A stretch of DNA of 60,116 nucleotides. It comes from a virus. Below, piece after piece: positions 40,671-60,116 of this stretch (its first letter is position 1; every line of letters starts with the position of its first letter). Both the position numbers and the translations under genes were made by a program. The notes under the pieces are model-generated. The model searched no databases. It saw only the letters and a list, made by a program, of their open reading frames with translations, and was not told the origin of the DNA. The stretch is from positions 1 through 60,116 of the IMG/VR virus record IMGVR_UViG_3300031974_004257, one strand, 5' to 3'.

Positions 40671-41273
40671 TTATTCAAAAAGAGATATTTTACCCTGTAG
40701 GTGTAGTTCCCGGACTATTCTTTCTTCATCATCTTTACGATGATTTTGTTGGTAAGGTATTACACTCTCAAAGTAATGAAATTTTGAAGGGTCTTGAAAA
40801 AAAGAAAAACCATAACAACTAACTTTGTCGAAATTTTCTAAAGCATACTGTATGCCTAGATAACCCATTGTTGGATCACCTCCAAGTATATTCCTATGGG
40901 CTGTCAACCATTCATCGGATATGTGCTTTATCTTATTTCCCTTGTTAAGAGTCATATCTCTATAAAGTTCGACACTATCATTAAAGTTTGACAAAGATTT
41001 CAACCAAATGGTTTCATTTGTTAATTCTCTAACATACTGATTATTATACTCTGGGAAAAACTGTGTGTGGTTTGCTAAGTGATTCGGGTCAATGGCGCAC
41101 AATATGGGATGACAATTCATAAACCTAATGTTTCTTTTTGACCCTACATGTTTTTCATAACCCTCAGTCTCAGCAATATTAAACCTTATTACCACGTCGT
41201 GGGAATCAATGTCATTACCAAACTCTTTTTCTAGTATAATTGGAGAATTTCCAACCACAGCACAACTAATCAT
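40671..41273 (-). CDS. GT29-family sialyltransferase-like protein
   Basis: 200 residues. The first 53 match sialylmotif L of animal sialyltransferases: SCAVVGNSPIILEKEFGNDI, DSHDVVIRFNIAETEGYEKH, VGSKRNIRFMN. Sialylmotif S follows: GGDPTMGYLGIQYALENFDK then VSCYGFSF. HYFE and NHRKDDEER supply the H-Y/motif III-like site and the H-x(4)-E of the very short motif. These motifs bind the CMP-sialic acid donor and acceptor and carry the catalytic His. There is no membrane anchor, unlike the Golgi enzymes, so it is likely cytoplasmic. The ATG overlaps the ketoisomerase stop by ATGA. GT29 is mostly eukaryotic with few bacterial and viral members. Adjacent NeuA/NeuB-like genes give it a donor. Confidence 0.88.
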   Translation of the reverse strand: MISCAVVGNSPIILEKEFGNDIDSHDVVIRFNIAETEGYEKHVGSKRNIRFMNCHPILCAIDPNHLANHTQFFPEYNNQYVRELTNETIWLKSLSNFNDSVELYRDMTLNKGNKIKHISDEWLTAHRNILGGDPTMGYLGIQYALENFDKVSCYGFSFFQDPSKFHYFESVIPYQQNHRKDDEERIVRELHLQGKISLFE

Positions 41274-41653
41274 TTTTGACCCTTTAAAATGTTTTTATAC
41301 TCTTCATAGTCTCTAATATAATTTGATTCATCATATAAAGCATCAGCAAATACCAACAAACAAGTATTAGCCTCTAAATATTCCAACGTCAGCCATTCCA
41401 ACTCTTTTTGGTAATACGTGTCTCCCTGTTCCATAGTGAACTTTTCTATGCCACTTTTATCTTCCTTTGAAACATTAACAGAGCCATTTAAGCAAATTAA
41501 AAAGTGTTCCTCTCCTTGGTGGGCATGTCTACCTCGGATATCATTAGCTTGGTTGTTTTTAACAAAAAAAGACCTCTTAGGATTAAACGGTATTTGAGAT
41601 ATGTCAAAGGGTATCAAAAATCCTGTAGGGTTTTTCTTAACTTCTAATCGCAT
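41270..41653 (-). CDS. FdtA/QdtA-like sugar 3,4-ketoisomerase (cupin)
   Basis: 127 residues. RGRHAHQGEEHFLICLNGSV followed by EWLTLEYLEANTCLLVFADA and YDESNYIRDYEEY align closely with FdtA, QdtA and WxcM-type cupins, including the His pair and the invariant YDE-x-x-YIRDY-x-E/D-F/Y tail. These enzymes turn dTDP-4-keto-6-deoxyglucose into the 3-keto isomer, the substrate of a 3-aminotransferase. I chose the ATG at 41653 with GAGAGGG upstream; a longer frame begins at a TTG 21 bases earlier. It overlaps the DegT aminotransferase gene, its usual pathway partner, and the GT29 gene by ATGA. Confidence 0.88.
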   Translation of the reverse strand: MRLEVKKNPTGFLIPFDISQIPFNPKRSFFVKNNQANDIRGRHAHQGEEHFLICLNGSVNVSKEDKSGIEKFTMEQGDTYYQKELEWLTLEYLEANTCLLVFADALYDESNYIRDYEEYKNILKGQK

Positions 41654-42563
41654 ATTTTTGTACCCTCTCGACAACAGTGTTTAATTCTTCTTCGGTCAAC
41701 ATTTCATGAAAAGGCAGTGAAACAGTTGTCTTACCTTCAAGTGTAGATTTTGGTAAGTTTCGCAACTTGGTGTTATAAACTGGATTTTCATGTAGAGCAG
41801 CATAGTGGATACCTGTCTGAATGTCTACTTGTTTCATATCCTCTATGAACTTATCTCTATTTTTTACATTTATGCGATACAAATGGTTACTAGTATTTTG
41901 AGCCCCCAAACGGTCGTTATAAAAGTCCCTTATCTGTAAAAGTTTATTGTTTTTATCATCTAGTTTCTCTAGATTATTCAATGCGATTTGAGATTGAACC
42001 GAATTCATGTACATCTTGTAGCCGGGAAATTTTATCTTCCTGTCCCAGTTGTCTTTAGAAAACGTCATACCATTAAGAGTTGACTCTTTAAATCTTTGTA
42101 TTTTAGACCAGTCATTGGAGACTATGATACCCCCATCACACGATCCAATAGGCTTTGTTGGGTAAAAGCTAAAAATCATCAAGTCTTTGTCATCTGCTTC
42201 GTTCTTAAACTGATCCCGTTGTACCTTTTGGGCTGAATCTATTACTTTATAATCTTCGAACTGATGAAGAATATATGAATCCCCAACCCACTCAGTATTG
42301 TCTGTAAAGTTTACTTTGTTTCCGCCAGTGATCAAGCCATTACAAACGACCGGAGGGATGACAGAGGGGACATTAATCGTCATACCTTTATTAAGGAAAG
42401 CCAAAAATATAGCATTAGTGGCACTACTCACAGAACAAGCGTACTTTGCCCCTACATATTCACAAAATTTAGATTCAAATTCTTCTACCACTTCACCATG
42501 TAGTAAGTGAGAGAAATTAGAGGTATCAATAACATAAGAGGGTATGTTAAATAACTGAATCAT
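41637..42563 (-). CDS. DegT/DnrJ/EryC1-family PLP sugar aminotransferase
   Basis: 308 residues from the ATG at 42563, which overlaps the TGA of the upstream gene (ATGA). LLHGEVVEEFESKFCEYVGA with ACSVSSATNAIFLAF is the N-terminal family signature, and IFSFYPTKPIGSCDGGIIVS holds the PLP-binding Lys and the GG pair. Members put an amino group on keto sugars of nucleotide sugars. Because it overlaps an FdtA/QdtA-like ketoisomerase and an RmlB-like dehydratase lies upstream, an FdtB/QdtB-type 3-amination of a dTDP sugar is the best guess; PseC/LegC-type 4-amination on the PseB product is the alternative. It is shorter than usual (about 360-380 residues). Confidence 0.85.
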   Translation of the reverse strand: MIQLFNIPSYVIDTSNFSHLLHGEVVEEFESKFCEYVGAKYACSVSSATNAIFLAFLNKGMTINVPSVIPPVVCNGLITGGNKVNFTDNTEWVGDSYILHQFEDYKVIDSAQKVQRDQFKNEADDKDLMIFSFYPTKPIGSCDGGIIVSNDWSKIQRFKESTLNGMTFSKDNWDRKIKFPGYKMYMNSVQSQIALNNLEKLDDKNNKLLQIRDFYNDRLGAQNTSNHLYRINVKNRDKFIEDMKQVDIQTGIHYAALHENPVYNTKLRNLPKSTLEGKTTVSLPFHEMLTEEELNTVVERVQKYAIRS

Positions 42564-43351
42564 TGCTTTAGTCCCATGTAGCAAATCCATGTGTACGAGG
42601 GTGCTTCGGTTAAATATACAGGATATTTATCGCTTGTATTCATCTCTAGTAGTGGTTCTGGCGAGGCGTAAATGTCATCGTCCCACACATCGCCCCAACG
42701 AGTAGTTGGTATCTTATATATCGGAGGCATCTCCTGATAGACATCAACCCTATCGTCAAATCTTTGATAGTCAAAGTAAGAGTATTTGTGATGCTCCCGA
42801 CGACCAGCATAATCCATCACATAGTCTCGACATGCTAAAATTTTCTTAGGGGAAAATGTATCACCCTGAGTGGAGGGATAATTATCCTCATATAAAATAT
42901 GTTTAACACCTAGAGAGTGAACATACTCCAACCGATCCAAAAAGTTCTGGTGATCATCAAGAAACAAAACTATATCTTCTCTTGTAATTCCTTCATTTTC
43001 TTCCATCTCTGAAAACAGCTTTTGCCAATCATATGATGTCATATCTTTATCAAGATACAGTGCTTTATCGCTTTTATACACGAGGTGTCTGAATGTTATA
43101 TCAATTGAGATTATTTTTGCTTCTGGAACTGCTTGTTCGATTATCCAGGTTCCTAGTCCTTTCCATACTCCGCTCTCGATAACTACCTTAGGTTTCAATT
43201 GCCGAAGAGCATACCAAGTATTAAACAAGTGCGGTGACTTCATGCCCCCTTCATTGTCATTAACAGGTCTTTTTTTATAGATTTCGTAAAACTCTTCTAA
43301 GGAGTTTTTTACTTGTTCTTTATTACTATAATCAATATAGTCGCTCCTCAT
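42560..43351 (-). CDS. Class I methyltransferase-like protein (263 aa)
   Basis: 263 residues. KPKVVIESGVWKGLGTWIIE with PEAKIISIDITF is the glycine-rich motif I and acidic strand 2 of a Rossmann methyltransferase; IVLFLDDHQNFLDRL and KHILYEDNYPST are consistent with the later strands. The family resembles small sugar or cephalosporin-hydroxylase-like (CmcI) methyltransferases, but I cannot place it exactly. Its start overlaps the preceding methyltransferase gene (TAATG). It may methylate the sugar made by the adjacent enzymes. Confidence 0.65.
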   Translation of the reverse strand: MRSDYIDYSNKEQVKNSLEEFYEIYKKRPVNDNEGGMKSPHLFNTWYALRQLKPKVVIESGVWKGLGTWIIEQAVPEAKIISIDITFRHLVYKSDKALYLDKDMTSYDWQKLFSEMEENEGITREDIVLFLDDHQNFLDRLEYVHSLGVKHILYEDNYPSTQGDTFSPKKILACRDYVMDYAGRREHHKYSYFDYQRFDDRVDVYQEMPPIYKIPTTRWGDVWDDDIYASPEPLLEMNTSDKYPVYLTEAPSYTWICYMGLKQ

Positions 43352-43950
43352 TATTGGTCCTTTCGAAATAGAAATGTTCTGTGATTACTTTCGTATGGGA
43401 AAGACCTAATAGCTCGCACAACACTAAAACCATTGAATTTAAATGTGTTTACCATGTCTTCATAGTTTATGACTGTCTTTACTGTGGGTAGGTTACCATA
43501 TGTAATGTAATTGTCAAGGTGAGATTCGCCACGTGTCACCTCTTGACGATGAATCAAGACATCACCAGTAGCGTGAATCAATATTTTATTAAGGATAGTG
43601 TACCACTCAGGCACCTCACTCAGGAAACTATTCATCAAGACCAAATCATGATCTTTAACAAATTCAAAACTAGTTTCATTGGCATCGAATCCTATGTAAT
43701 TTTGTGAAGGGCTAGAAACTTTGGAAACGTCATTAATGATATGTGGTAAATCAGCGCCCGTATATTCCCACTCAGGATAAGTTAGTGCTACTTCCGCAGC
43801 ACCACACCCAATATCAAGCAATGTTTTTCCGTCTGAAAGTTTAACACATTCGTCTAGGGCGGTAAAGTGATCTGATTCTTTCAGTGGCTTAAACCCAGCG
43901 TTCAACATTGAATTGGGTAGCTGCTCCTCATCATACCATGCTGTTTTCAT
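43351..43950 (-). CDS. Class I SAM-dependent methyltransferase (199 aa)
   Basis: 199 residues. KTLLDIGCGAAEVALTYPEW gives a canonical motif I (D-I-G-C-G), YTGADLP motif II, and DLVLMNSFLSEVPEWYTILN motif IV/V. No membrane segment. The ATG overlaps the stop of the glycosyltransferase gene (ATGA) and its stop overlaps the next start. The substrate is not visible; a sugar or glycan intermediate is likely by position. Confidence 0.8.
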   Translation of the reverse strand: MKTAWYDEEQLPNSMLNAGFKPLKESDHFTALDECVKLSDGKTLLDIGCGAAEVALTYPEWEYTGADLPHIINDVSKVSSPSQNYIGFDANETSFEFVKDHDLVLMNSFLSEVPEWYTILNKILIHATGDVLIHRQEVTRGESHLDNYITYGNLPTVKTVINYEDMVNTFKFNGFSVVRAIRSFPYESNHRTFLFRKDQ

Positions 43951-44837
43951 TGGTTTTCCATCTCCCTTTTAATTCTAGCCATTAGTGCCTCTATATTCTT
44001 CTCTATAGCAGCAGGGTGTTGCCCATCAAAATCAGCGGTATAACATTCACCTCGGTACTCCGGCTTAAACTCGTGAACTCCTTGAAATTGTTTTTCTATC
44101 TGATACCTTTCAAAAGGTTCAGCGTTCATCCACGGAACATAAACCCTATTGTAATAATCATCTATACACTTAGACATGCTAACTTTAGCTTTATAATATT
44201 CTATCTTATTCTTAACTTGTTTTGGGAAGACATACGAATAATGATACATCTCTATACCAGTAGTATTATAAAGTGTCTCGCTGTCAATATGTTTTCTAGA
44301 GATGTTTAAGTCTTCTGGGTATCTTATAGTTGGTGGGCGGTGCGTCAACCAAGTACTACCTGGAGTTACTCTGAATATTCGCAAGAAGTTATCTCTGTTA
44401 AGCTCGAAACCAGTAAGATAGTTGTCAAACCCTCCATAGAAACTTTTACTACGAACCCCTACACTTGTGGGCTGTACTTCTTGAAGAAATGATATCATTT
44501 TTTCTATATCTGACTGGAGATAAAGTTCATCGCTATCAAGATTCCACAAGTAATCAATGTCATCTCTAAGATGAGTCAAATAAGCATTACACTGTTCATC
44601 TTTTTCGCTATATTGCCCCCTAACAATATGTATTTTATTGTCGGGGTCAGGAAAATTATTTAAAATCTCATTTGTTCGATCAGTGGAGGTGGTTCTTCCT
44701 CTATCTTGCCAATATTTAACTGGACCCTCAGCTATTAATATCTGAGTCGCATAAGGATAGACTTGTTCTAAGCACTCTTGTAGAACATAATCTCCTTCAA
44801 ATACTATCATCCCGAAGGCTATTTTTGGTTTTCTCAT
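43947..44837 (-). CDS. GT2-like glycosyltransferase (296 aa)
   Basis: From the ATG at 44837 (AAGGA five bases upstream) the protein has 296 residues; a longer frame to 44855 lacks this signal. IAFGMIVFEGDYVLQECLEQ is the GT-A first strand and helix, and LWNLDSDELYLQSDIEKM carries the DSD that would hold the metal and nucleotide sugar. This fits the GT2-like group that includes the beta-1,4-N-acetylglucosaminyltransferase-type enzymes. It overlaps the upstream GT8-like gene by 41 bases. Donor and acceptor unknown. Confidence 0.75.
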   Translation of the reverse strand: MRKPKIAFGMIVFEGDYVLQECLEQVYPYATQILIAEGPVKYWQDRGRTTSTDRTNEILNNFPDPDNKIHIVRGQYSEKDEQCNAYLTHLRDDIDYLWNLDSDELYLQSDIEKMISFLQEVQPTSVGVRSKSFYGGFDNYLTGFELNRDNFLRIFRVTPGSTWLTHRPPTIRYPEDLNISRKHIDSETLYNTTGIEMYHYSYVFPKQVKNKIEYYKAKVSMSKCIDDYYNRVYVPWMNAEPFERYQIEKQFQGVHEFKPEYRGECYTADFDGQHPAAIEKNIEALMARIKREMENQ

Positions 44838-45729
44838 GTGCTTCCTTAAGATCATTATAATACTGATCGGCTATATGTTTAATAAAGTGTCTTTGAACTT
44901 CTGTTCCCATAGGAGCACTCACAAATCCATGGCGGGGTGCTAGTTGATAAGAGTTGTTTTTGTAATCTGGCTTAAAATTAGAAAAATGACAATACAGAAG
45001 ATCTTGAGTGTAATTACTCCATCTTATTTTTCCATCAGTGGTATACTCATGGAAAATAAAATTCCAAGGTGCTAGATGACCTATATCTGAATCTAGTATC
45101 TTTACTTCCTCTGTGAGTTCTTCGAATACTTCCAAATATTTTTGATCTCCACAGGTGCCGTGTGTTTTTGCGTATTCATTGTCGGGCTTTAGTAGGCAAT
45201 TTTTCCACCACGTTAATACCTTGTATCCTTCAAAGTTGTTTTTAAAATAAACAATCCCAACATTATATTTGCCATTCACTGGGTTGTACGAGCACCTGTG
45301 CTCGACTATACCTACACTACATTCTTCTACTGACCTTCTGAGGTTTGATAGATCACGAAAGAAGTATATGTCTGAGTCGATATATAATACATCATCTACT
45401 GGTAAGTTCTCCATACACCACCAAGTAAAATATGGGGCAAGAGACCACATAAACTGTAGTCTAGTAGCATCACCAGTATTGTTTGCTGTATTTATCAATG
45501 CCTCTCTTGAGGGAGGGTTTGATTGCGCCTGCCTTAGAACAGGGTCTGCTTCTAGTAGGTCAGCTAGTTTATATTTCTTAATATTAGGTTCATTACATTT
45601 TTCAAATATTTGATCATCCACACACAATAGATGTAAGGTATAATCACTCTGATGACGCTTCAGTGAAGCATTTAGAGCTAATACTTTTTCTGTGAAGTTG
45701 TTGTCCGCTAAGGTACAAAAATTATTCAT
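44797..45729 (-). CDS. GT8-like nucleotide-diphospho-sugar transferase (310 aa)
   Basis: 310 residues from the ATG at 45729; the frame can be extended three codons to a TTG. The first strand is FCTLADNNFTEKVLALNASL, and VDDVLYIDSDIYFFRDL holds the D-x-D metal site of GT-A transferases. YNVGIVYFKNNFEGYKVLTW followed by CGDQKYLEVF matches the GT8/nucleotide-diphospho-sugar transferase group, where the D-Q pair lies at the active site. No membrane anchor. It lies between a methyltransferase and a GT2-like enzyme in the sugar cluster. Confidence 0.78.
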   Translation of the reverse strand: MNNFCTLADNNFTEKVLALNASLKRHQSDYTLHLLCVDDQIFEKCNEPNIKKYKLADLLEADPVLRQAQSNPPSREALINTANNTGDATRLQFMWSLAPYFTWWCMENLPVDDVLYIDSDIYFFRDLSNLRRSVEECSVGIVEHRCSYNPVNGKYNVGIVYFKNNFEGYKVLTWWKNCLLKPDNEYAKTHGTCGDQKYLEVFEELTEEVKILDSDIGHLAPWNFIFHEYTTDGKIRWSNYTQDLLYCHFSNFKPDYKNNSYQLAPRHGFVSAPMGTEVQRHFIKHIADQYYNDLKEAHEKTKNSLRDDSI

Positions 45730-45746
45730 AATCTTCAATTCTTAGT

Positions 45747-46421
45747 TCAGGTTTTCAAAATAACACAAATAGCATCCCAAATATGAACCGACAGAGTGTT
45801 GCTGGTACTGTCGTCAACGCTAGTTATTATATCTTTCAAAAAATTATCAAAGTCTTTTCTTCTGTTATTAAAATCCATATTTGGACTACCCTCAATAGCA
45901 CGGCTCTTTGTCTTAGTTGGATAATCACGCTCTGGCAAATGAAATCCATAACTATTATAAAGATCTTCTATAATGTAAACCCCTTTTTCTTCTAAACTAT
46001 CCCACAAAAAAGAAAGAGAATCTATAATATCACTATTGATATGTGACCCATCATCAATTATAATATCAAACTTATCACGTCCTGTTTTTAGTTTACAGGA
46101 TTCTAGTACTTTGTCAATAGTAGGTTTTTGCTCTTGCGGTCCAATAATAATACTTACCCGGTCATCCTGGCATGAAAGGCAGTCTCTATCTATGTCGATG
46201 CCAAATATATTAGCCTTCGGAAAATACTCTTTCCAAACAGATAACGAAGGACCCTTTCTCACTCCAATCTCTAAAATATTAATCTCCTGATCCCTAAAGC
46301 GATTAAAATAGAGATCATATACATCTAAATAATTAAAATCTTTGGTGCGGTTATCTGTCGCCTTGTCTGTGCCATAATGTTTGGCTAGTACTGATAGTTC
46401 ATTTTTCTTGTTTGGATACAT
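45747..46421 (-). CDS. Sugar O-methyltransferase, MycE/macrocin type (224 aa)
   Basis: 224 residues. ELSVLAKHYGTDKA and NYLDVYDLYFNRFRDQEINI, LEIGVRKGPSLSVWKEYFPK, ANIFGIDIDRDC and KFDIIIDDGSHINSDIIDSL are the typical blocks of the metal-dependent O-methyltransferases that act on sugars of macrolides (MycE-like). The D-D-G-S-H stretch would bind the metal. AAGGAAAA precedes the ATG. It follows the RmlB-like gene, so methylation of a 6-deoxy sugar is plausible but unproven. Confidence 0.8.
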   Translation of the reverse strand: MYPNKKNELSVLAKHYGTDKATDNRTKDFNYLDVYDLYFNRFRDQEINILEIGVRKGPSLSVWKEYFPKANIFGIDIDRDCLSCQDDRVSIIIGPQEQKPTIDKVLESCKLKTGRDKFDIIIDDGSHINSDIIDSLSFLWDSLEEKGVYIIEDLYNSYGFHLPERDYPTKTKSRAIEGSPNMDFNNRRKDFDNFLKDIITSVDDSTSNTLSVHIWDAICVILKT

Positions 46422-46432
46422 TGAGTTTTCCT

Positions 46433-47326
46433 TTATACAAATTTAAGTATTCCTTGATTTTTAGGTATTTTAAATCCTGTTTCTGTGAGTTTTTCGGAAT
46501 CTATAGAATATCTAATGTCCTGACCAAGTCTATTTTTTACAAATTTTACGTGTGGTTTAATATTATCAATGCCGTACCAGGAGCAAATTTGCTCGACCAC
46601 CTCTAGATTTGTCAAATGATTATCAGCAGCGATATTAAATACTTCATTTTTATACTCGTTCATTATCAGGTGATAGATCGCCGAAACATTATCCTCAACC
46701 CTGACCCAGTCTCTTATATAAGAACCATCGCCATGTATAGGAATTTTAGTATTATTCTCTAAACACTCTATGATTTTAGGGATCAATTTTTCAGAGTATT
46801 GTCGTGATCCATAATTATTAGAACTACGTGTTATCAAATAGTCTAGACCATATGTCTTATTGTGGGAAAATACAAACATTTCCCCTGCTGCTTTACTTGC
46901 TGAATAGGGGTTACTCGGAAGAAGCATATCCTTTTCATAGAACTTTTTGTCTCGGGTGTCGCCATAAACCTCGTCAGTACTTATCTGTACAAACAAAGGA
47001 GGATTGTAGACTTTTGCTCTGACAAGCTCTAGCAAATTAAATACCCCCCTAGCATTACTGTCAAAGAAAACTTTGGGCGATTCAATAGAATTATCTACAT
47101 GAGATTCGGCAGCAAAATTAACAACAACATCACACGGAGGTAGATGTGTCATAGTAGATATATCTTGCTCAATCAATTGATAGTTTTCATTCTCATCCCA
47201 AGGGACTGTCTTGTTGGAGGCATAAGTCAACTTATCAATATCTATAACAGTGTGCCCTTTCGATAGAACTAGTTCTACAAAATGGCTGCCGATAAAACCT
47301 CGACCACCGGTTACTACAAATTTCAT
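46433..47326 (-). CDS. rmlB: RmlB-like dTDP-glucose 4,6-dehydratase
   Basis: 297 residues. VVTGGRGFIGSHFVELVL is the NAD-binding loop, NFAAESHVDNSIESP the RmlB active-site strand, ISTDEVYGDT the T-D-E triad, and YSASKAAGEMFV the Tyr-x-x-x-Lys pair; SSNNYGSRQYSEKLIPKII and GDGSYIRDWVRVEDN complete the family set. It removes water from dTDP-glucose to give the 4-keto-6-deoxy sugar. It is about 50 residues shorter than E. coli RmlB, mainly at the C-terminus. No RmlA is in the window, so dTDP-glucose would come from the host or from genes outside. GGGGT lies before the ATG. Confidence 0.93.
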   Translation of the reverse strand: MKFVVTGGRGFIGSHFVELVLSKGHTVIDIDKLTYASNKTVPWDENENYQLIEQDISTMTHLPPCDVVVNFAAESHVDNSIESPKVFFDSNARGVFNLLELVRAKVYNPPLFVQISTDEVYGDTRDKKFYEKDMLLPSNPYSASKAAGEMFVFSHNKTYGLDYLITRSSNNYGSRQYSEKLIPKIIECLENNTKIPIHGDGSYIRDWVRVEDNVSAIYHLIMNEYKNEVFNIAADNHLTNLEVVEQICSWYGIDNIKPHVKFVKNRLGQDIRYSIDSEKLTETGFKIPKNQGILKFV

Positions 47327-47329
47327 ATT

Positions 47330-49324
47330 TTACCCCTGTAAGAAAACCTTTTGGTATTTCTTGAAAATTGAAAATTCTTCCTTTTGTTTCTTTTTTTCAG
47401 TCTCTTTATTTGTTGAGATACCTTTAGGATTTAGATAATACAAGCCTAGGAGCTTGTTTAGACAAAAGAACTTAGACCCACCAAAGGCAGCCCTCAGCCA
47501 CATCTCCCAGTCACCAGCACTAAAATATTCATCATTGAAAGTACCGTGCTTATCGTGAAGGGATTTTCGCCACATAGGATTATTGTGAGGAGAATTTCCT
47601 TTAAGAAGTGTCTCTTTTCCAGTAAAGGCAAATGGAGTAAGTTTACGCCAAGTAGGATCTTGATCTTCGAATCTTTGATTAGGCTTATCCGTTATATAAC
47701 AATCGGCATAAACTAGATCTACATCCTCTTTGCTAAAAAGTGTTTTAGCGTGATATTCCAATGAATCGATACTCTTGCGGTCATCAAGATTAGCGTTTGT
47801 TAAAAACTCCCCTGTTGATAGTTCAATTCCCATATTCCAGACTCCATAGATTCCAGGGTCCTTGTCTAGTCTTTTATACACAATATTGTCTGGGAATTTC
47901 TTAAGGTATTGGTTTATAACTTCTTCTTCATTCCCTGGAGAATTAGCATTAATCAGAATTAGTTCGCACTTTTCTTTGAAAATTGTCTGGCGGGTTATAT
48001 CCTCCAGGAAACCTTCTATGTGATCATCACCGTCATAAACAGATGTGATAATAGATATTTTTGGCAACAGTCCTGTGTCCACGTCTTTATAATCAATCAA
48101 GGAAAGGTTGTTCTTTATAAAAGATTGATACTTTTCATGTACTTTAGAAATGTTTTGATTTTCACGAAGATATGATGATAACACACTAGTATCAAAGTCA
48201 AGGTATCTTCCCGGTTTTCTAATTTGCCGAAGTGCTTTCTTAAATGATTCTTCTTTAGGGTAAGCCCACTCACATTCTGGGGTGATTAAGTTTGGCATCA
48301 AGTGATAGGGTTTTACCTTGTCAATCGTATAGTCAACTTTGATAAAGTGACTCTTTATCTTTTTCTTTCCACTTTTAGATGTTACGGGAACTCTTAAAAA
48401 ATCCAAATGTCCAGACCAATTAGTAGTTATAATTGGTATATTATTACAGGCAGCCTGAAATAGAGGTATCCCAAAGCCTTCTCCGTGTGTTGTTGAAATA
48501 TAACAATCAATTACTTCGGGGTCGTAGAGTGACTGTACTTGAGAGTCACTCATGCTCCCGTGTACTAGGTAAACTTTACATTTACGATCTTTAGCTACTG
48601 TGTCTAGCAAATTAATAAGCCTGTCCCTGGTGGCGTGATAGTCCAAAGTGCTGTTATTTTGTAAATGTGTCTTAATAACTAAACCCACCTCAGGGTCATC
48701 CTTAAATTCGGATAAAAACCATTGAATCATCAAATCAAAGTTTTTACGAGGTGCCATCTGTAGAACAGTTAGAAAGTTAAACTTAGTACTAAGCTGTATT
48801 TGAGAGTAAATATCTTCCTTATCTTCTTGCCTATATCCATGAGGAATTACATCGATGGGAGTCGTTATCTTAGCCCCATCGGCACCCTTAGTATTTTTAA
48901 GATTTTTCTTAGCGTGCTCAGAGCATACCAGTATACGGTTCATAGAATTACATTTAGAGATCCACGCTTCAGGGGCAAAAGTTGTTTCTAGGGCGGCAGT
49001 GACTCCTATGTCATTTTCTGACATTCTTTCAAATTCGTTCGGCGGCTTGACCTGATATGTAGTGTCGTACAATCCAGCAAGGTTTACATTGCCTTGCGGG
49101 TCAACATGTCGGCGGTATAATTCTTGTGTCTTATTTATGTACTTCTTGTACTTTTGAAAATACTTGAGGCTCCGGCTGGATGCTGCCCACTGTGTTTCTT
49201 GAATGTAAAGATCTATCTGATCTCCCATGTTTATAAAAGCGTCTGCTAGTGTTCTCGCATGTTCGCTATAACCAGAAATATTACATACCGGTCCCACAAT
49301 AAGGACTCTTGGAGTTGTTGTCAT
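47330..49324 (-). CDS. Bimodular GT4-GT2 glycosyltransferase (664 aa)
   Basis: Residues 1 to about 390 are a GT-B/GT4-type transferase: VLIVGPVCNISGYSEHARTL at the start, VLQMAPRKNFDLMIQWFLSE, and STTHGEGFGIPLFQAACNNI with the conserved E-G-F-G-x-P. Residues from about 405 are a GT-A/GT2 domain: PKISIITSVYDGDDHIEGFL, a D-P-G-I-Y-G-V-W-N segment, LTNANLDDRKSIDSLEYHAK (an N-L-D-D in the D-x-D place) and FSAGDWEMWLRAAFGG. Two transferases in one chain usually add successive sugars to one glycan. The ATG overlaps the upstream gene by ATGA. Confidence 0.85.
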   Translation of the reverse strand: MTTTPRVLIVGPVCNISGYSEHARTLADAFINMGDQIDLYIQETQWAASSRSLKYFQKYKKYINKTQELYRRHVDPQGNVNLAGLYDTTYQVKPPNEFERMSENDIGVTAALETTFAPEAWISKCNSMNRILVCSEHAKKNLKNTKGADGAKITTPIDVIPHGYRQEDKEDIYSQIQLSTKFNFLTVLQMAPRKNFDLMIQWFLSEFKDDPEVGLVIKTHLQNNSTLDYHATRDRLINLLDTVAKDRKCKVYLVHGSMSDSQVQSLYDPEVIDCYISTTHGEGFGIPLFQAACNNIPIITTNWSGHLDFLRVPVTSKSGKKKIKSHFIKVDYTIDKVKPYHLMPNLITPECEWAYPKEESFKKALRQIRKPGRYLDFDTSVLSSYLRENQNISKVHEKYQSFIKNNLSLIDYKDVDTGLLPKISIITSVYDGDDHIEGFLEDITRQTIFKEKCELILINANSPGNEEEVINQYLKKFPDNIVYKRLDKDPGIYGVWNMGIELSTGEFLTNANLDDRKSIDSLEYHAKTLFSKEDVDLVYADCYITDKPNQRFEDQDPTWRKLTPFAFTGKETLLKGNSPHNNPMWRKSLHDKHGTFNDEYFSAGDWEMWLRAAFGGSKFFCLNKLLGLYYLNPKGISTNKETEKKKQKEEFSIFKKYQKVFLQG

Positions 49325-50580
49325 AGTTGAACCGCCTTAATATTTTTATAGTTTTTTCGTGTATCCCAAGATCCACATTCCTCATTTATTCTAAGCATAA
49401 AGTTGACCCATTGGGAATTAAATTTTTCAAAGTTGTAGTTTTCTTCAACATGTTTCCTCCCAGCAGCACCGAGTTTTTCTCGTTGTTCAGGAGTTGCTTC
49501 ATACATTCGCAAAAGTGCTTCATGGAAAGATTCTTTAGAAATTCTATCTTCATAGATAAAAGGAACTTGCTGTGAACCAATAACTGCCTTTGAGGCTGGG
49601 GCGATGCCGATTCCAAACATGTTTTCACCGTCAGTGACTTGTTCTTGGAGTCCGCCTGTCATATTAACAATAATGGGCGTTCCGCAAGAGAGAGATTCCA
49701 GCGTTGCCAAGCCAAAACCTTCGGCATCCGAAATGTTAATTGTACAATCAGCAACGTTATACAAGAAACTCAACTGCTCAGCGGGAAGTTTTTGCGTGGA
49801 TATAATCAATTCACCATCCTTGAAGCCGAAAGATTTTGCCAAATAATGTAGGGGTTGTCCATGAGGATCGTTAGGATCAGTATGCATAAAGAGACAAACC
49901 TTATCTCTATCAACTTCTTCCAGGTCCAAAAATTCTCTAAACCAATGAACCAGACTGCCAGTTTGTTTGCGGCGAGCGTTTCGATTATTCCAAAAGAAAA
50001 TAAACCGATCTTTAAGAGCCGGATTGATATCATACAAACTCTTTAATTCTTCAGCCGGTCTTTTTTTGAATATAGAGGAATCAACCGCATGAGGAATATA
50101 CTCTTCCGTCACGGTAGGTGCGACAGTCTGGACAATATCGCTAGTAACTTTTGAGATACTAGCAATCGCATCATTAGCCTCATAAAACTTTCGATTAAAA
50201 ATAGGGTATGGATAATTATCCCATACATGATAATATACCATAGGCACATTCTCCCTGATATTATCATCAATAGCCCATAGCCACTCATAAAATCGAGGGT
50301 CTGTCATAAAGTAGAGAATGTCTGGCTTTCTGTCATTAATAAAAGCATTAACCAAGGCGGCATTGCCGTAGCCATCAACTGGGAAGATTTCCCAGTCTTC
50401 TCCGTATGGCTCTACAGTTTTGGGCGTGTAATCTTGATGTTTTACTGCTCCCCCAAGGGAGATAACCTTAAACTTTCCACTGCGAAGAAGTGCTTCAATA
50501 ACATACTTTGTCTGAGTGGCGACCCCCGACGGCAACAATGGGTGGTCACTTATGGTTAGAACTGTTAGCTTTTTGTCCAA
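49321..50580 (-). CDS. GT4-family glycosyltransferase (419 aa)
   Basis: 419 residues. LTISDHPLLPSGVATQTKYV begins the GT-B fold with the glycine-rich acceptor loop; FFWNNRNARRKQTGSLVHWF gives the basic donor-binding strand; ISDAEGFGLATLESLSCGTP is the E-G-F-G-L-x-x-L-E motif of family 4. Marine T4-like phages often carry a similar gene. The start codon is TTG at 50580, with TGAGGAA eight bases upstream; no ATG is near. It is the first gene of the sugar cluster in transcription order. Confidence 0.85.
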   Translation of the reverse strand: MDKKLTVLTISDHPLLPSGVATQTKYVIEALLRSGKFKVISLGGAVKHQDYTPKTVEPYGEDWEIFPVDGYGNAALVNAFINDRKPDILYFMTDPRFYEWLWAIDDNIRENVPMVYYHVWDNYPYPIFNRKFYEANDAIASISKVTSDIVQTVAPTVTEEYIPHAVDSSIFKKRPAEELKSLYDINPALKDRFIFFWNNRNARRKQTGSLVHWFREFLDLEEVDRDKVCLFMHTDPNDPHGQPLHYLAKSFGFKDGELIISTQKLPAEQLSFLYNVADCTINISDAEGFGLATLESLSCGTPIIVNMTGGLQEQVTDGENMFGIGIAPASKAVIGSQQVPFIYEDRISKESFHEALLRMYEATPEQREKLGAAGRKHVEENYNFEKFNSQWVNFMLRINEECGSWDTRKNYKNIKAVQL

Positions 50581-51445: not shown

Positions 51446-52105
51446 TTAGTTGTTAACAAGTTCGTCAATCTTGTTATATAGTTCCGGGCTAATTTTCTTT
51501 AATTTTTGTTTGCTGCCTAAAAAATACTCTTCAAAGCCAGTACCAAAATACTCTCGAAGAGATACCGAAGCGTATGGTCTTACAAACATACCAGCAGTCA
51601 TCATCTTTAGTAAATTCGGACCAACACGTTTATATAGAAAATTGTCTAAGTCAAGACTGTATTTAAGATTATCAAAGTCATACTCTTGAGTCCAATAACC
51701 CTCTGAACGTAGTTCAAATTCAAGTTCTGCTCGTTTTTTTAGGAATTCTTTCTTAATCTTTTGATCCCCATAAATTTCTTCAGGATACAACTCTTCGATA
51801 TGATGAGCAAATTCATGTACTATATCATCAATTAGATCAGGGGCATTATCTTGCCGGTGTGTAATATAAAAAACGCCATCTTTATACAACGCATTAGCTG
51901 AACGTTTATCGAATATCTCTTGATGTCCAATTTCTACACCTTTCAATCCTCGGAAAAATTTATTAGGTATCAATTGTTCAATAGATTTAAACACTGCCTG
52001 AGGGTCTATGTTGTCTGGTAACTCATCCCGCTGAAATACTGGCACGCTACCAAACTTAAAATGACGAGTAGTATCTTTTACTTTCTCTAGGATGTACTCT
52101 CTCAC
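51446..52105 (-). CDS. Putative zinc metallopeptidase with HEFAHH motif (219 aa)
   Basis: 219 residues. LIDDIVHEFAHHIEELYPEE contains the H-E-x-x-H zinc-binding and catalytic motif; a Glu-rich helix (KKRAELEFELRSEGYW) follows, one of whose Glu residues may be the third ligand. No signal peptide or membrane segment, so it would act in the cell or in the virion. The start is GTG at 52105, overlapping the TGA of the PhoH gene (GTGA). The family is not one I can name. The tight coupling with PhoH and the nuclease gene suggests a joint function that is not known. Confidence 0.7.
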   Translation of the reverse strand: MREYILEKVKDTTRHFKFGSVPVFQRDELPDNIDPQAVFKSIEQLIPNKFFRGLKGVEIGHQEIFDKRSANALYKDGVFYITHRQDNAPDLIDDIVHEFAHHIEELYPEEIYGDQKIKKEFLKKRAELEFELRSEGYWTQEYDFDNLKYSLDLDNFLYKRVGPNLLKMMTAGMFVRPYASVSLREYFGTGFEEYFLGSKQKLKKISPELYNKIDELVNN

Positions 52106-53406
52106 AATATCTCCGAAGCCAATGTTGCTAGTTCCGATCTTTCACCTTTGGTCAAAGTTATGTGACCAGAAATATCATAGTTTTTAAACTTTTCAACAGC
52201 ATGTGTCAAACCATTAGATACTGAATCAACATAGGAGTTATCAATCTGTTGAATATCTCCTGTCAAGACTAGTTTTGTGCCATGTCCGACTCTTGTTATT
52301 ATAGTCTTTAATTCGTGCGCTGTTAAGTTTTGAGCTTCATCAACAATCATAAAGGCATTTGCTATTGACCTTCCTCTTATATAGGTCATGGCTTCAATTT
52401 CAATAGTTCCTTGCTCTATCTGTAGATCTAAAGCAGTTCTATCTCCAAACAAGTGCTCTAGATTATCTCTAATGGGAGCAATCCATGGCATCATCTTTTC
52501 CTCTAAAGTCCCAGGAAGAAAACCAATATCACGACCCATGGGCTGAACGGGTCTTGTGATAATTAATTTATCATACCCTCCATTAGCTTTTGTAGTGTTC
52601 ATTACTTGTTCCAAAGCGCAAGCAGTAGCTAACAATGTTTTACCAGTTCCCGCTGGTCCCGTCAAGGACATTATATGAATATTTTGATCAAACAATAAAT
52701 CCATAGCATATTGTTGCTCTTTGTTTCTAGCGGACATCCCCCAAATATTCTTGTACTTGTTCACTTTCTTAAGTGGCTGTCCCTCGCCCATATATCGACA
52801 AATAGCTGATTTATTTACTGAATCATCCTTTAAAAGAAGAAACTGGTTTGGGTAAAGCTTTTTCTTATACCCTTCTAAAACAAAAGGTTCGCCAGTGTAA
52901 AATCGATCAATAACACCATACTCGGTTTCTATTTCTTGTGTTCCTGTGAACAAATTCTCGACTGAGTTGATTGCTTTTTGTGCTTGATAGTCATAGCACT
53001 CTATTCCATGAGCATCACATTTGACACGCATATTTAGATCACGAGAAACAACGGCTATATTATGCCCCTTTTCCTTTAATCTTAGAGCGATCGCAATAAT
53101 TTTATTATCAGAGTCATCTTCTTGCATTCCTGGTGGCAGAAAAGACGCATCATAATGAGCAGCAAAAATTTTCCCTTTACCTCTACCCAGAGCAACCCCA
53201 TCCATGAGACTACCTTTTGATCTCAAAGAATCTAAGACTCTGTTCATTGTACGAGCGTTAAGACCAGCAGTATCTTGGCGGTGCTTGTGTTTATCTATCT
53301 CGTCCAGCACGATTGTTGGAATAGCAATATTGTGTTTACCAAAAGCTAAAATAGAACCTGCTTCTGTAAGATACACATTAGTATCTAAAATTATGGTTTT
53401 TTTCAT
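52102..53406 (-). CDS. phoH: PhoH2-like protein: PIN nuclease domain plus PhoH ATPase
   Basis: 434 residues. Residues 1-140 are a PIN domain: IILDTNVYL (first Asp), PTIVLDEIDKHK, and DDSDNKIIAIA plus VVSRDLNMRVKC for the later acidic residues. Residues about 215-434 are the PhoH ATPase: MSLTGPAGTGKTLLATACAL (Walker A), ITRPVQPMGRDIGFLPGTLE, FMIVDEAQNLTAHELKTIIT (Walker B) and KLVLTGDIQQID. PIN-PhoH proteins (PhoH2, YlaK type) unwind and cut RNA in the studied bacterial cases. PhoH genes are widespread in marine phages. It starts 80 bases after the tmRNA, downstream of that gene's terminator, with AGGGA before the ATG, so it probably has its own promoter. Confidence 0.93.
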   Translation of the reverse strand: MKKTIILDTNVYLTEAGSILAFGKHNIAIPTIVLDEIDKHKHRQDTAGLNARTMNRVLDSLRSKGSLMDGVALGRGKGKIFAAHYDASFLPPGMQEDDSDNKIIAIALRLKEKGHNIAVVSRDLNMRVKCDAHGIECYDYQAQKAINSVENLFTGTQEIETEYGVIDRFYTGEPFVLEGYKKKLYPNQFLLLKDDSVNKSAICRYMGEGQPLKKVNKYKNIWGMSARNKEQQYAMDLLFDQNIHIMSLTGPAGTGKTLLATACALEQVMNTTKANGGYDKLIITRPVQPMGRDIGFLPGTLEEKMMPWIAPIRDNLEHLFGDRTALDLQIEQGTIEIEAMTYIRGRSIANAFMIVDEAQNLTAHELKTIITRVGHGTKLVLTGDIQQIDNSYVDSVSNGLTHAVEKFKNYDISGHITLTKGERSELATLASEIL

Positions 53407-53464: not shown

Positions 53465-53486
53465 AAAAAAGCCGCCCGAAGGCGGC
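53465..53486 (-). terminator. Rho-independent terminator of the tmRNA gene
   Basis: Read on the minus strand: GCCGCC, loop TTCG, GGCGGC, then six T. The stem has six perfect G-C pairs capped by the very stable UUCG tetraloop, and the stem begins on the base next to the CCA end of the tmRNA. This is a textbook intrinsic terminator and also marks the RNA's 3' boundary. Confidence 0.95.
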
Positions 53487-53810
53487 TGGTGGAGGTAGGG
53501 AGAATTGAACTCCCGTCTTGTCTAGTTCCACAGAGAGGTCGTTCACAAGGTTAGGTCTGTTTTTTTCGTCAGACAGCCCACATGACTAGATCATCTTATT
53601 ATGGCTGAGATAATCAAAAGCACTTAGAAGACAAAATACGGCTTTCTGTTTTTTGGCTGCCGTCGCCTCAAGTCAAGTCAGGTTATTAAGCTGCTTGTGC
53701 TAGTTGAAAATCGTCGTTTGCGATTATATTTGTAAGCGTTTTTAGTGAGCCACGCTTCCCTCACCCTTGCACCTTTTCTATTTTCCTATCAATCGATTCC
53801 GGTTACCCCC
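53487..53810 (-). ncRNA. ssrA: Transfer-messenger RNA (tmRNA), one-piece
   Basis: A complete 324-base tmRNA. The 5' GGGGGTA pairs with TACCTCC before the encoded CCA, seven pairs including the G3-U wobble that alanyl-tRNA synthetase reads. GGGAG-TTCAATT-CTCCC is the T arm. The tag frame starts at GCA (53721) and reads ANDDFQLAQAA then two TAA stops, preceded by AATATAATC, close to E. coli AAATAGTC before its resume codon. GC-rich stretches between about 53680 and 53550 would hold the pseudoknots; I did not fold them. tmRNA with SmpB frees stalled ribosomes and tags the peptide for proteolysis. No SmpB gene was seen, so the host protein would be used. It is in one piece, unlike tmRNAs of alphaproteobacteria and many cyanobacteria. 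Confidence 0.96.
53683..53721 (-). other. tmRNA tag-peptide reading frame
   Basis: Eleven codons from the resume GCA encode ANDDFQLAQAA, followed by tandem TAA stops. With the alanine carried by the tmRNA itself the full tag is AANDDFQLAQAA. E. coli uses AANDENYALAA. The start (ANDD) and the terminal AA are kept; the residue before them is Gln instead of Leu, and the tag is one residue longer. The two stops followed by CCTG are also as in E. coli. Confidence 0.93.
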
Positions 53811-53817
53811 TCTAGAA

Positions 53818-53848
53818 TATTTATACACCATATAATCTAACTTGTCAA
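53818..53848 (-). promoter_or_regulatory. Promoter of the tmRNA gene: TTGACA-17-TATAAATA
   Basis: On the minus strand TTGACA (53848-53843), a 17-base spacer and TATAAA (53825-53820) form a near-perfect sigma-70 promoter whose start would fall within a few bases of the mature 5' end at 53810. The -10 element extends to TATAAATA (53825-53818), which is exactly the T4-type late promoter sequence. The site could therefore be used by the host sigma factor early and by the phage gp55-like factor late. The overlap is seen in the sequence; dual use is inferred. Confidence 0.88.
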
Positions 53849-54782: not shown

Positions 54783-57700
54783 TTATCTCCGTCTTTGACG
54801 TTTTGCTCTTCTAACTTTTGGGCGGCTAGTTTTTGAGCGTTTTTTATAAGGATCGTAAGTGTTAGGAGGTCCAAAACCAATAGCACCTCCACCAGATACA
54901 TCACCCGCAGCCATGGTAGATATTTCATCTATGGAATCATCGATAAAAGAATTCAACCTTCTGGAGGGCGACACTAAAGAGTCCCAAAGAGCGTCACCAT
55001 CTATTGAGGGAGGGGTATAAGATAGGAATGTTTCCTTATCTCCATCAGCAATAGCTTTTCTCATGTCACGGGCACTATAAACAATGCCATCTTTAGATTG
55101 GACAGGGTCTTCAACGATATCCTCTACATTTACACCGGGGTTATGACGCTCAGCATACGATTGCGCACGGTCAAAGCGAGTATCCCCCACATCCTTACTA
55201 CTCTTAACTAAAAGAACCGTATCTCCATCAGAGGCTGACTCGGGATCAGCAACAAATTCATAGACTGCCTGAACTGGACTACGATAGTCAGCGATCTTAG
55301 CAGTGATGTTTGGTTCACCGTTTTCAAGGTATTCTTCCCATATGCGCAAACTTTGCGCATTGCTTACTTCTGGGTAATCAACGGGAGAAATTAAAACAAT
55401 CACCTCATCAACATCAGGGCGCTTAGCAATCTTATTCACATAATCGAAGTGACCACGATGTGGCGGCTTAAACTTACCAGGGAATAGAGCTATACGCTTA
55501 CCTTCTTTTTCAGTAATGACTTGAGTGGTGTTATTTAATGATTCGTTTCTTTGGGCTGGGGCTTCACGATCTTGTGAAACTTGCTGTGTCATTTCTTTTG
55601 CGATAATCTCAGAATCTTTAATAGCTTTAGTACCAGCATCTATAGCCTGACTTCTGTCACCATAAGTAAAATAATTGTCTATATTATCAGACAAATCTTT
55701 TGTAGATTGAAAAATGTCTTCAACAGATTTACTCAGAGCGTCCATATGTTGTGAAGCTATTTTAATAATTCTGTCGGGTGAAATTGGTAGTGTTCCAAGT
55801 TCTTTGTAAAAGGAAAGTTTAGTATTGAACTTAGGAAGTTGCGCAGCACTTATAACCCATTGCTTACCACCAGTCTTAGATTCAGTTAATAAATATTGTT
55901 CCATCATTTTCCTGTTTTCTTCAACAGTTATGATTCGTTTTCCTTCTTCCTGAGTAACTATTTGATCGCCTTGTGACGCCATGGCTGCTTCATCTTCTTC
56001 TCTTCGCTTAAGATCAGCCTGAGCTTTAGCTAAATCTTTCTCTCTTTGAACAGCATTATACCCATTAGTCATTTGGTAAATAGCGTATTTTTCTTCCCAG
56101 GTTTTTTTCCTTTTTAAATTCCATAAAGTTGTGGATGCTGGTTTGGTTCCAATACCAAAAAGTTCGTCTTGAGCTTTTTGACCACGACCTGCGGTTAAAA
56201 GTTCAAATACATTGTCTCTTGTAATTTTAAATTGTTCTATCGCAATTTCGTCGCCCAATTTCCGAGTGACAATATACATCATACCATCAGGAAATTCGTT
56301 TAGTGAATCAATTAGATTAGTATAACTTCCATGGATACCACCCTTTTTTCTTAGCAATTTAAGACTTACTGGTACTTCATATTCTGCTCCGATATCAGAA
56401 AAAGCAATCAAATCTTGAATAGGTAAATTACCTTTAGCACTCACTTCAGCTTCTTGTTTACCGCCAAGAAGCGCAGCTAAAAATCCTTCAAATACAAAAC
56501 CTGAAGCAGAAGCAGAAAAACTTCTAATAACAGCACTCAAAGATTCTAACATAATAAGAGTACTGATAATACGACGAGGAGATGTCATCTTAATATCTTC
56601 AGAAACTCTTCTTTTTAAATCGGCTAGCCGAGCTTCTATATTTGCTCCCCCAGAAACAGTAGCAAAAATCTTTTGTATCTGTTTTCTTTCCATGGAATCT
56701 GGATCACCCCACTTTTCAGTAGGTGTAAATTTTGGAAGCGATAGAACAAATTTTGTAGCTCTATCTGCCTTAATATTATTTTCTTTCTCTGTTATGATTG
56801 GTTTGTCAGCAACTAGAGATTCTTTTGTACTTCTTTTTAGGTTCCCGTAGCGGAACATCCCAAGTATCTGATTTAGCGGAGCAAAGTTGCCCGCAAACTT
56901 GTATGTATGTCCATTATAATCAAAGACCACCGCCTCAACTGGAGTAGTAATTGTAGAGAAGTCCTTTATTTTATTGAGATGTCGCTGCATAATCGCCATG
57001 GCTTCAGGATTCTCAGAACCAACGGCTGTAATTTCCTTGACAGCATTAGCTAATTCAGACTTAAGTCGCATGACTTCTTTGTCATTGTCGGCTATGAAGA
57101 TGCTTTTAAGCCCCTTAAGAAGCTCTACTGTAAAATCGTGAATTGCGTTCTCTAGTGGCTCAACAGCTTGTTGTAATAAGGACTTTTTAGCGGAGATGAT
57201 AGAATTTAGGTCGCCTAGGTCTTCGGGACTTAAACCTTTCTTTAGGGCTCTTAGCCCTATATTGCCTGGCAACTTAAGAAGATAGTTTACTATTTCCTCT
57301 TTGAGGTCAGTAGAAATTTCGGAGTCTATACCGTTCATCAATCTTTTAAACGTGTAGTCTAAAACAGTTGAATCATTGTTTAGTCCTTCTTTTCTCATTT
57401 CGTCGTGTATGCGGGTCATGACTCTGTTAAGAGCATTTCCATCATCTTCAATTTTTTTGATATCAATTAATGCTTGGCGAGCCAAATTAAAATCATCATC
57501 ATGGAGTTGTGCCTCCATCCTCTCTAAGGCATTATCTAATGTTCTTAAAGTTCCTTTAGGGATAGGAGACTGTTCTCCTGTGTTTCGATCAAAAACGAAG
57601 TGACCAACATCGTGGATTTTTAGTGTCTTGTCGTCATATAAGATAACGTTAGCGTTACCTGGGTCCATGACCTCGGCATTATACCAGATGTTCGTATTGG

Positions 57701-58040
57701 GTCCAAATATTCTTTCTTTTTCCTCATCTGATAAGGCTTCAACTGCTTTTTCAAAAGTAGCAAAACCACCAGTAAAAGCTTTTTCTAGTCCTCCACGTCC
57801 AGCGAACTTCTGAGCCAGACCCACGGCATCTAATCCACCAGCCTTAAGGTTCCCTTTATTTCGGGCACCCTTAGCCTTACCCTCTGGAATAGAATAGGAT
57901 AGAAATAGGTTTTGACCATCTACTTTCTCTTCAGCAGTCAGTTCACCATTAGCAGCAGCCTGAAGGATTTCCTTCATTTCACCGAATGTAAGATCCCTAT
58001 TTTCATAGAGATGATCCATGTGACCAGCTACGCCACCCAT
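54783..58040 (-). CDS. Multidomain protein: ligase-like motif, middle domain, HxGH nucleotidyltransferase (1085 aa)
   Basis: N-terminus: LTAEEKVDGQNLFLSYSI, with K38-V-D-G41 like motif I of RNA/DNA ligases (the Lys takes AMP), and IWYNAEVMDPGNANVILYDD resembling motif III. Around residues 510-565, FVFEGFLAALLGGK, then IQDLIAFSDI and EYEVPVSLKLLRK, could be a degenerate PD-(D/E)XK fold; this is speculative. Around residues 850-1000 a Rossmann nucleotidyltransferase is clear: IALFPGKFKPPHRGHFDYVN (HxGH) and VYSARDMRKAIADG (like S-x-T-x-x-R), as in NMN adenylyl- and cytidylyltransferases. The tail is Arg and Lys rich. Similar fused proteins occur in marine T4-like phages with no known role. RNA repair or NAD-linked chemistry is possible. 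Confidence 0.8.
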   Translation of the reverse strand: MGGVAGHMDHLYENRDLTFGEMKEILQAAANGELTAEEKVDGQNLFLSYSIPEGKAKGARNKGNLKAGGLDAVGLAQKFAGRGGLEKAFTGGFATFEKAVEALSDEEKERIFGPNTNIWYNAEVMDPGNANVILYDDKTLKIHDVGHFVFDRNTGEQSPIPKGTLRTLDNALERMEAQLHDDDFNLARQALIDIKKIEDDGNALNRVMTRIHDEMRKEGLNNDSTVLDYTFKRLMNGIDSEISTDLKEEIVNYLLKLPGNIGLRALKKGLSPEDLGDLNSIISAKKSLLQQAVEPLENAIHDFTVELLKGLKSIFIADNDKEVMRLKSELANAVKEITAVGSENPEAMAIMQRHLNKIKDFSTITTPVEAVVFDYNGHTYKFAGNFAPLNQILGMFRYGNLKRSTKESLVADKPIITEKENNIKADRATKFVLSLPKFTPTEKWGDPDSMERKQIQKIFATVSGGANIEARLADLKRRVSEDIKMTSPRRIISTLIMLESLSAVIRSFSASASGFVFEGFLAALLGGKQEAEVSAKGNLPIQDLIAFSDIGAEYEVPVSLKLLRKKGGIHGSYTNLIDSLNEFPDGMMYIVTRKLGDEIAIEQFKITRDNVFELLTAGRGQKAQDELFGIGTKPASTTLWNLKRKKTWEEKYAIYQMTNGYNAVQREKDLAKAQADLKRREEDEAAMASQGDQIVTQEEGKRIITVEENRKMMEQYLLTESKTGGKQWVISAAQLPKFNTKLSFYKELGTLPISPDRIIKIASQHMDALSKSVEDIFQSTKDLSDNIDNYFTYGDRSQAIDAGTKAIKDSEIIAKEMTQQVSQDREAPAQRNESLNNTTQVITEKEGKRIALFPGKFKPPHRGHFDYVNKIAKRPDVDEVIVLISPVDYPEVSNAQSLRIWEEYLENGEPNITAKIADYRSPVQAVYEFVADPESASDGDTVLLVKSSKDVGDTRFDRAQSYAERHNPGVNVEDIVEDPVQSKDGIVYSARDMRKAIADGDKETFLSYTPPSIDGDALWDSLVSPSRRLNSFIDDSIDEISTMAAGDVSGGGAIGFGPPNTYDPYKKRSKTSRPKVRRAKRQRRR

Positions 58041-59511: not shown

Positions 59512-60116
59512 TTACAGAGGTTCAAAACCTCCTTGTTGTTTTTCTTCGACGTTTCCTATGTGAAAATATTCATGTAAGTTGTTATGTAGGTTTTGCATCA
59601 TTTTAATCATGTAAGAATCTGTTTTATCTGCCTTATTATTCATTTTCTGCCAGACTTCCATCTCTGCTTTAGCAACAGAGTTTCGAAGGAAGACCTTAAT
59701 CGCCAGGAGAGGCGAGGCAACACCAATGTTTTCCATTGAGCGATAACCAGCAAAAATGTTACCAATGATTTCATTGTTGATGTTCATGATAGGAGAGCCA
59801 CTACTCCCAGGCTTTGTAGGCATACTATACATTGCATAGCCTTCTGGAGAATAACCTGTGAAGTATCCATCAAAAGATAGAACCATTCTTGGGAAGACAA
59901 TACCGTGAGGAGCAGCCATGTTGTAAGCAACTTCGCCTCTTTTTGGTCTTTCTTTTGCTACCCTAAGAACTGGTGGCTTGATAAGAACAGTGCGAACTCT
60001 TAATAGGCAGAGGTCCCATCTCTTGTCGATCGCTACAACTTCAGCCTTATATTTAAAGCCGTTGTAATCAACGAGTGTGAATTTCTGTCCCATATGTGTG
60101 ACTTTTACACCTTCTA
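59512..60116 (-). CDS. Trypsin-like serine protease, 5' part beyond window
   Basis: The visible part includes the catalytic Asp region (VVAIDKRWDLCLLRV) and the nucleophile Ser (TKPGSSGSPIMNINNEIIGN), the layout of chymotrypsin-fold proteases of the DegP/S1C type. The His of the triad is not in the visible part. The frame is open to the window edge: before the ATG at 60093 it reads EGVKVTH without a stop, and there is no good ribosome site, so the true start very likely lies outside, where the His would be expected. The C-terminus is helical (KADKTDSYMIKMMQNLHNNL). No PDZ domain follows. Confidence 0.8.
   Translation of the reverse strand, partial: EGVKVTHMGQKFTLVDYNGFKYKAEVVAIDKRWDLCLLRVRTVLIKPPVLRVAKERPKRGEVAYNMAAPHGIVFPRMVLSFDGYFTGYSPEGYAMYSMPTKPGSSGSPIMNINNEIIGNIFAGYRSMENIGVASPLLAIKVFLRNSVAKAEMEVWQKMNNKADKTDSYMIKMMQNLHNNLHEYFHIGNVEEKQQGGFEPL

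Follow-up and report, generated by a model that had tools for sequence, protein, structure and literature searches.

A complete tmRNA gene at a constant place in a clade of uncultivated phages, and evidence for exchange of its tag cassette

The tmRNA gene and its transcription unit

The window, which is the whole 60,116-base virus record analysed here and probably a fragment, carries genes for a T4-type baseplate wedge, PhoH and an exonuclease, with nearly all of its long open reading frames on the minus strand. The only gene that ARAGORN reports in the whole window is a one-piece, ssrA-like tmRNA of 324 nt (encoded CCA included) at 53487-53810 on the minus strand (c[53487,53810], with the tag ANDDFQLAQAA followed by two stops). 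An Infernal check with the Rfam tmRNA model, which a sequence-only reading of this DNA had proposed, matches RF00023 to the same span and strand over the full model, 1-374 (cmscan; 96.2 bits, gathering score 47 bits, E 2.8e-36). Typical proteobacterial tmRNAs reach Rfam scores of about 150-290 bits; the window RNA is therefore divergent.

The presence of a complete phage tmRNA gene is confirmed, and the parts listed in that reading are all intact. The 7-bp acceptor stem, GGGGGUA/UACCUCC, includes the G3-U pair that is kept in 38 of 38 aligned relatives; the T arm is present and is paired in 100% of cells of the relatives' alignment; the encoded CCA, the resume GCA and the tandem UAAUAA are each seen. 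The tag reading frame (53683-53721, minus strand), defined by ARAGORN and by the tag kinds of the relatives, runs from the resume GCA through ANDDFQLAQAA to UAA UAA, and its end (GCA...GCU UAA UAA) specifies a short tag with an AA end, then stop. The 5' and 3' acceptor halves lie at the ends of the gene, and both ARAGORN and Rfam give an unpermuted order, so that this is not a two-piece tmRNA. The window RNA fits the sequence-testable features of a one-piece tmRNA.

The gene is flanked by the signals of a self-contained transcription unit, again as first read from the letters, and the span assigned to that unit, 53465-53848, agrees exactly with its promoter, tmRNA and terminator features. The -35 element TTGACA (53843-53848, minus strand), conserved in most relatives, is separated by a 17-base spacer from the -10 element, read as TATAAA (53820-53825, minus strand), 9 bases before the 5' end of the tmRNA. 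The intrinsic terminator, GCCGCC-UUCG-GGCGGC followed by six T (53465-53486, minus strand), begins directly after the CCA, and its pattern recurs in 38 of 39 loci. Among 35 distinct upstream regions, 30 have a sigma70-like promoter that agrees with the consensus at 10/12 positions or more and is placed 3-14 bases ahead of the 5' end; letter shuffles of these regions reach that score in 1.3%. The promoter is unrecognised in L019, L034 and L035, and in L031 it lies, by eye, slightly farther from the 5' end. A T4-late-type box, TATAAATA, at 53825 was considered as a late promoter and rejected as a variant of the window sequence; no late promoter is claimed, because most relatives have other -10 boxes.

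Four predicted pseudoknot regions, all on the minus strand, are assigned in the RNA: PK1 (53734-53764, GUGAG/CUCAC with AAGCG/CGCUU), near-invariant in the clade; PK2 (53638-53667, GGC/GCC with ACGGC/GCCGU, helices 9 and 10); PK3 (53589-53615, the 8-bp helix GAUUAUCU/AGAUGAUC, helix 11); and PK4 (53554-53586, GUC/GAC with GGGCUGU/ACAGACC, helices 12 and 13). The structure model has 14 helices with 73 pairs, and in the alignment of 38 sequences 95.0% of cells hold standard pairs, a percentage biased towards the window sequence from which the model was drawn. The compensatory counts are less subject to this bias: 26 pairs change on both sides, versus 14.6 in shuffles, and compensatory changes occupy 133 cells, versus 43 in shuffles and 9-25 after sliding the helices by 1-3 columns. 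The bulk of the covariation falls in PK2 (both stems), the one PK3 stem defined, the second PK4 stem, the T arm and H5. Across the same sequences PK1 and the other PK4 stem are almost invariant and without covariation; PK1 pairs form in 99-100% of cells and, being so nearly invariant, provide little structural information. Most of the nested helices are also predicted independently by RNAalifold. A small hairpin, AAUCG/CGAUU, in the 53696-53724 region holds the resume codon, ends at its first G and covaries in the phage tmRNAs. It was considered as a phage-specific feature and rejected; it is not claimed as new because many bacterial tmRNAs have similar ones (6-8 pairs in several, such as those of loci L138, L148 and L172).

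Constancy of the gene and exchange of its tag

Downstream of the tmRNA lies a 434-aa PIN-PhoH (PhoH2-like) protein (52102-53406, minus strand; PF02562 E 6.2e-52, PF13638 E 5.2e-24), with which relatives were retrieved: 52 viral loci, those of at least 67% identity being counted as close. The tmRNA stands upstream of phoH in all 38 close relatives in which upstream sequence is present; L020, L022, L033 and L051, whose contig end removes this region, are left out of the 38. ARAGORN detects it in 26, and Infernal together with sequence reading in 12 more. Gene loss in those 12 is rejected, since Infernal and direct reading find the tmRNA in all. With the window, then, it occupies the same place in 39 of 39 loci, flanked by phage genes to its left and right. 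Its presence in 38 of 38 relatives indicates that it is maintained by selection, and conservation of the unit at one place in 38 related loci, taken with the compensatory changes in its helices, excludes chance.

The tag does not share this constancy. The 39 loci hold 19 tags like ANDDFQLAQAA, 10 ending ...EMAA (for example ANDDFNMEMAA), 5 ANNNAELALAA, 4 ending ...QLALAA, and one, that of L032, that is truncated; the AA end is kept in all full-length tags. Distribution of these kinds over trees points to a segment that travels separately from the rest of the RNA. Six changes of tag kind are needed on the tmRNA tree and 13 on the tmRNA tree built without a roughly 60-nt cassette (53672-53733, minus strand, between PK1 and the segment after H5); on the phoH tree 15 are needed, with a shuffled mean of 18.0. 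Loci L016, L025 and L034 have identical 61-nt cassettes, and the flanks of L025 differ from those of L016 and L034 at 37-38 of about 260 sites; L025 and L028 are sisters by flank (100/99) and by phoH (100/99), yet carry different cassettes. A pairwise-incompatibility (PHI-type) test gives p 0.0005 for recombination within the gene, a value that is read jointly with the trees because base pairing of neighbouring sites may contribute to it. Between the tmRNA backbone and the adjacent phoH, distances are uncorrelated (r 0.10, p 0.18). Tree conflicts, shared cassettes, the PHI-type test and the uncorrelated phoH distances together argue that the tmRNA is mobile among these phages and that the tag is mobile inside the tmRNA; exchange of the roughly 60-nt cassette among tmRNA backbones by recombination is well supported by these comparisons. 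Homology arms for such exchange could be provided by the near-invariant PK1 on one side and by the conserved segment after H5 on the other.

Phage tmRNAs as such are already established, and the sequence-only reading understated them in calling such genes known in only a few phages: a 2021 survey found tmRNA in 402 of 18,146 phage genomes, with 133 distinct tmRNAs (PMC9004378), and huge phages carry them as well (PMC7162821), as do mycobacteriophages and phage G (PMC4131195). What is new, as far as the accessible literature shows, is a constant one-piece tmRNA in an uncultivated clade together with tag-cassette shuffling. The shuffling is the unexpected part; no report of recombination of phage tmRNA tags was found in openly accessible papers. 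The 39 loci show that tmRNA can belong to the constant genes of a phage group instead of riding along sporadically, and here it is its own transcription unit.

Proposed role in infection

tmRNA acts with SmpB to rescue ribosomes on broken mRNA. A search of the genome for SmpB (PF01668), suggested in the sequence-only reading, came back empty in 13 records of 58-191 kb that may be fragments (the window and 12 relatives), with a search that was positive in 10 of 14 control genomes; the RNA would therefore depend on SmpB from the host or from sequence left unassembled. Integrase (PF00589) was likewise found in 0 of 7 records, six of them of 109-191 kb and all possibly fragments. With neither protein found in the records examined, a lytic ribosome-rescue RNA working with host SmpB is most likely. 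Ribosome rescue is the best-supported role on the sequence evidence, and we put at roughly three in four the probability that this is a functional phage tmRNA, a virus-owned and long-inherited ribosome-rescue RNA. Expression, charging, SmpB use and rescue during infection are what we infer.

The course of events would be as follows. Host RNA polymerase would transcribe the tmRNA from its own sigma70-type promoter and end at its own terminator; host enzymes would trim the transcript, and host AlaRS would charge it via the G3-U pair. Host SmpB would bring it to ribosomes stalled on mRNAs that are cut or lack a 3' end during infection, whereupon the stalled ribosome would accept alanine, move to the GCA, append the short tag and stop. 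The freed ribosome would be recycled into phage translation, and the tagged peptide would probably be degraded by host ClpXP. The phage gene would add rescue capacity from a host-type promoter. During T4 infection the host SsrA is stable and abundant, and it has been speculated that ribosomes are thereby kept available (PMC9697503); in phage Wildcat the tmRNA is the most highly expressed lytic gene (PMC7474061).

The neighbouring PIN-PhoH protein has the same two domains as PhoH2, in mycobacteria an RNase and RNA helicase (PMC4826407), and might be among the sources of cut mRNA. Unlike the PhoH2 system, the phage protein, whose activity is predicted, is split from the tmRNA by the terminator, and the histories of the two genes do not track. 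A functional pairing of tmRNA and PhoH2-like RNase was considered; the tmRNA-PIN-PhoH synteny holds in the clade, but the pairing stays a suggestion because the genes recombine apart and distant relatives lack that order.

Instructive for the division of labour between rescue and tagging is L032 (IMGVR_UViG_3300009129_001478, 4607-4933), in which the resume codon is followed by GCU UAA, so that the predicted tag is AA-stop; its tRNA-like domain, pseudoknots and hairpins are otherwise kept. It is the sole record with this pattern in the viral collection, and an assembly error or use of another frame could account for it. Helicobacter pylori is viable with stops placed right after the resume codon, whereas resume-codon, wobble and SmpB-site mutants are not (PMC2584231). 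This tolerance makes a rescue-only tmRNA plausible, and L032 is possibly a natural one.

The exchanged tags and the two-residue predicted tag of L032 are natural material on why phages carry tmRNA, whether to free ribosomes or to mark proteins. Tentatively, and with the odds somewhat against it, the clade may be seen as drawing on a shared pool of cassettes shuffled by homologous recombination, with the fate of tagged peptides an evolvable trait and a natural tag-less variant showing that rescue and tagging are separable in a virus; were this so, that fate would also be rapidly exchanged. A further, rather doubtful proposal makes the tag itself the point: the phage tag would alter the handling of peptides tagged in infection (slower, faster or through another adaptor), and with it host protein fate or amino-acid recycling, cassettes being swapped as hosts and proteases favour different tags. 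It draws on the movement of tags between backbones, on tag kinds unlike the ...YALAA endings that prevail among the sampled bacteria and among other phage tmRNAs, and on the host-protein tagging that has also been proposed for a phage tmRNA (PMC9004378). Against this, the AA end common to all full-length tags makes them possibly equivalent, shuffling can amount to neutral hitch-hiking, the otherwise intact L032 RNA has a predicted AA-stop tag, and H. pylori needs rescue, not the tag (PMC2584231). Tagging of host proteins for degradation, the other role offered in the sequence-only reading, is weakened, as frequent tag change and the two-residue L032 tag would count against it.

It is very unlikely that the phage RNA is a decoy that inhibits host trans-translation by tying up SmpB or AlaRS, a role suggested for the ssrA of phage DS6A, which consists of the tRNA-like domain only (discussed in PMC4131195). 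The negative SmpB search would suit a decoy; but the tRNA-like domain would suffice for a decoy, and the RNA here also retains its resume codon, tag frame, stops and predicted pseudoknots, with covariation.

A complete tmRNA in a lytic phage recalls the Bxz1-group mycobacteriophages, Wildcat and Bacillus phage G (PMC7474061, PMC4131195); unlike those, the window unit belongs with different hosts and has no DNA match at 1e-5 among 50,697 phage records. For Melnitz and the pelagiphage two-piece tmRNAs, sustained translation or protein recycling has been proposed as the role of phage ssrA (PMC9004378), although the RNA of the marine phage Melnitz is permuted, two-piece and near a glutamine riboswitch, whereas the window RNA is in one piece, has a plain promoter and gives no riboswitch match in Rfam.

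Lineage, host and neighbouring genes

The phage RNA has the domain order of bacterial one-piece tmRNA (ssrA, RF00023), and also its G3-U acceptor, resume GCA, UAAUAA stops, AND... tag start, predicted pseudoknots and terminator after CCA. It differs in being about 25-40 nt shorter, in grouping apart, and in tags that end, in most members, in QAA or MAA rather than LAA. The best identity to the sampled bacteria is about 70%, to tmRNAs with ANDENYALAA or ANDEQYALAA tags in the phylum of G029. In a tree, a branch with support 100/99 separates all 34 phage tmRNAs from 68 bacterial ones; the tree samples two bacterial phyla, the program warned of long branches meeting at the phage/bacterial split, and most of the more distant phage tmRNAs were gathered through a PK1 pattern that they share, a choice that favours their grouping. 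An old viral tmRNA lineage fits these sequences better than a recent pick-up. It is extremely improbable that the gene is a host ssrA picked up at a prophage attachment site. Integration at ssrA is known, and excision from it can carry complete copies (PMC9004378), but the constant place among phage genes, the absence of integrase from the seven records, the separation in the tree and the identity of only about 70% all stand against it.

By direct DNA comparison, 42 of 398 genomes match in the phylum of G029 versus 0 of 394 in that of G030; this hints at a proteobacterial-like origin, and the host is not proven by it. In the genome collection the window tag pattern has no match, and the PK1 pattern has two, neither of which is accepted as a host locus. 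L079 is a chance match within an ABC-transporter gene. L078 (PBOB01000052.1) is a phage contig filed in an Acidiferrobacteraceae MAG. It has phage genes, a member of the 54783-58040 gene family and a phage-type tmRNA (ANTDVEQAYALAA); a separate tmRNA that belongs to the MAG itself scores much better. Because L078, a more distant relative, comes from a Red Sea Tara sample, a marine habitat of the clade is likely. In the 2021 survey 50 of 53 two-piece phage tmRNAs were marine or aquatic, versus only 2.5% of one-piece ones (PMC9004378).

Several neighbouring features deserve mention in their own right. The large relatives have 3-5 tRNAs roughly 10-18 kb from the tmRNA. The gene at 54783-58040 (minus strand) encodes a 1085-aa protein with a nucleotidyltransferase-like end (a weak cytidylyltransferase match) and an N-terminal KVDGQN that by eye resembles the lysine motif of nucleic-acid ligases; its relatives occur in Microcystis phage Mel-JY01, huge uncultured phages and L078. 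A weak, below-cut-off metallopeptidase match (PF06167) lies at 51446-52105, and a trypsin-like protease domain (PF13365, E 3.6e-11) at 59512-60093, both on the minus strand. The 484-kb uncultured phage LR756508.1 has two RF00023 matches over the cut-off, at 92434-92880 and 414804-414915, one of which falls far short of a whole tmRNA in length. The window's long minus-strand run at 34089-50580 consists of genes that are, by their starting sequences, sugar-, surface-glycan- and methyltransferase-like, among them a sialic-acid-synthase-like gene (38470-39933) and a sugar-nucleotide-transferase-like gene (39933-40613), an unusual amount of glycan-type content for a tail-gene contig.
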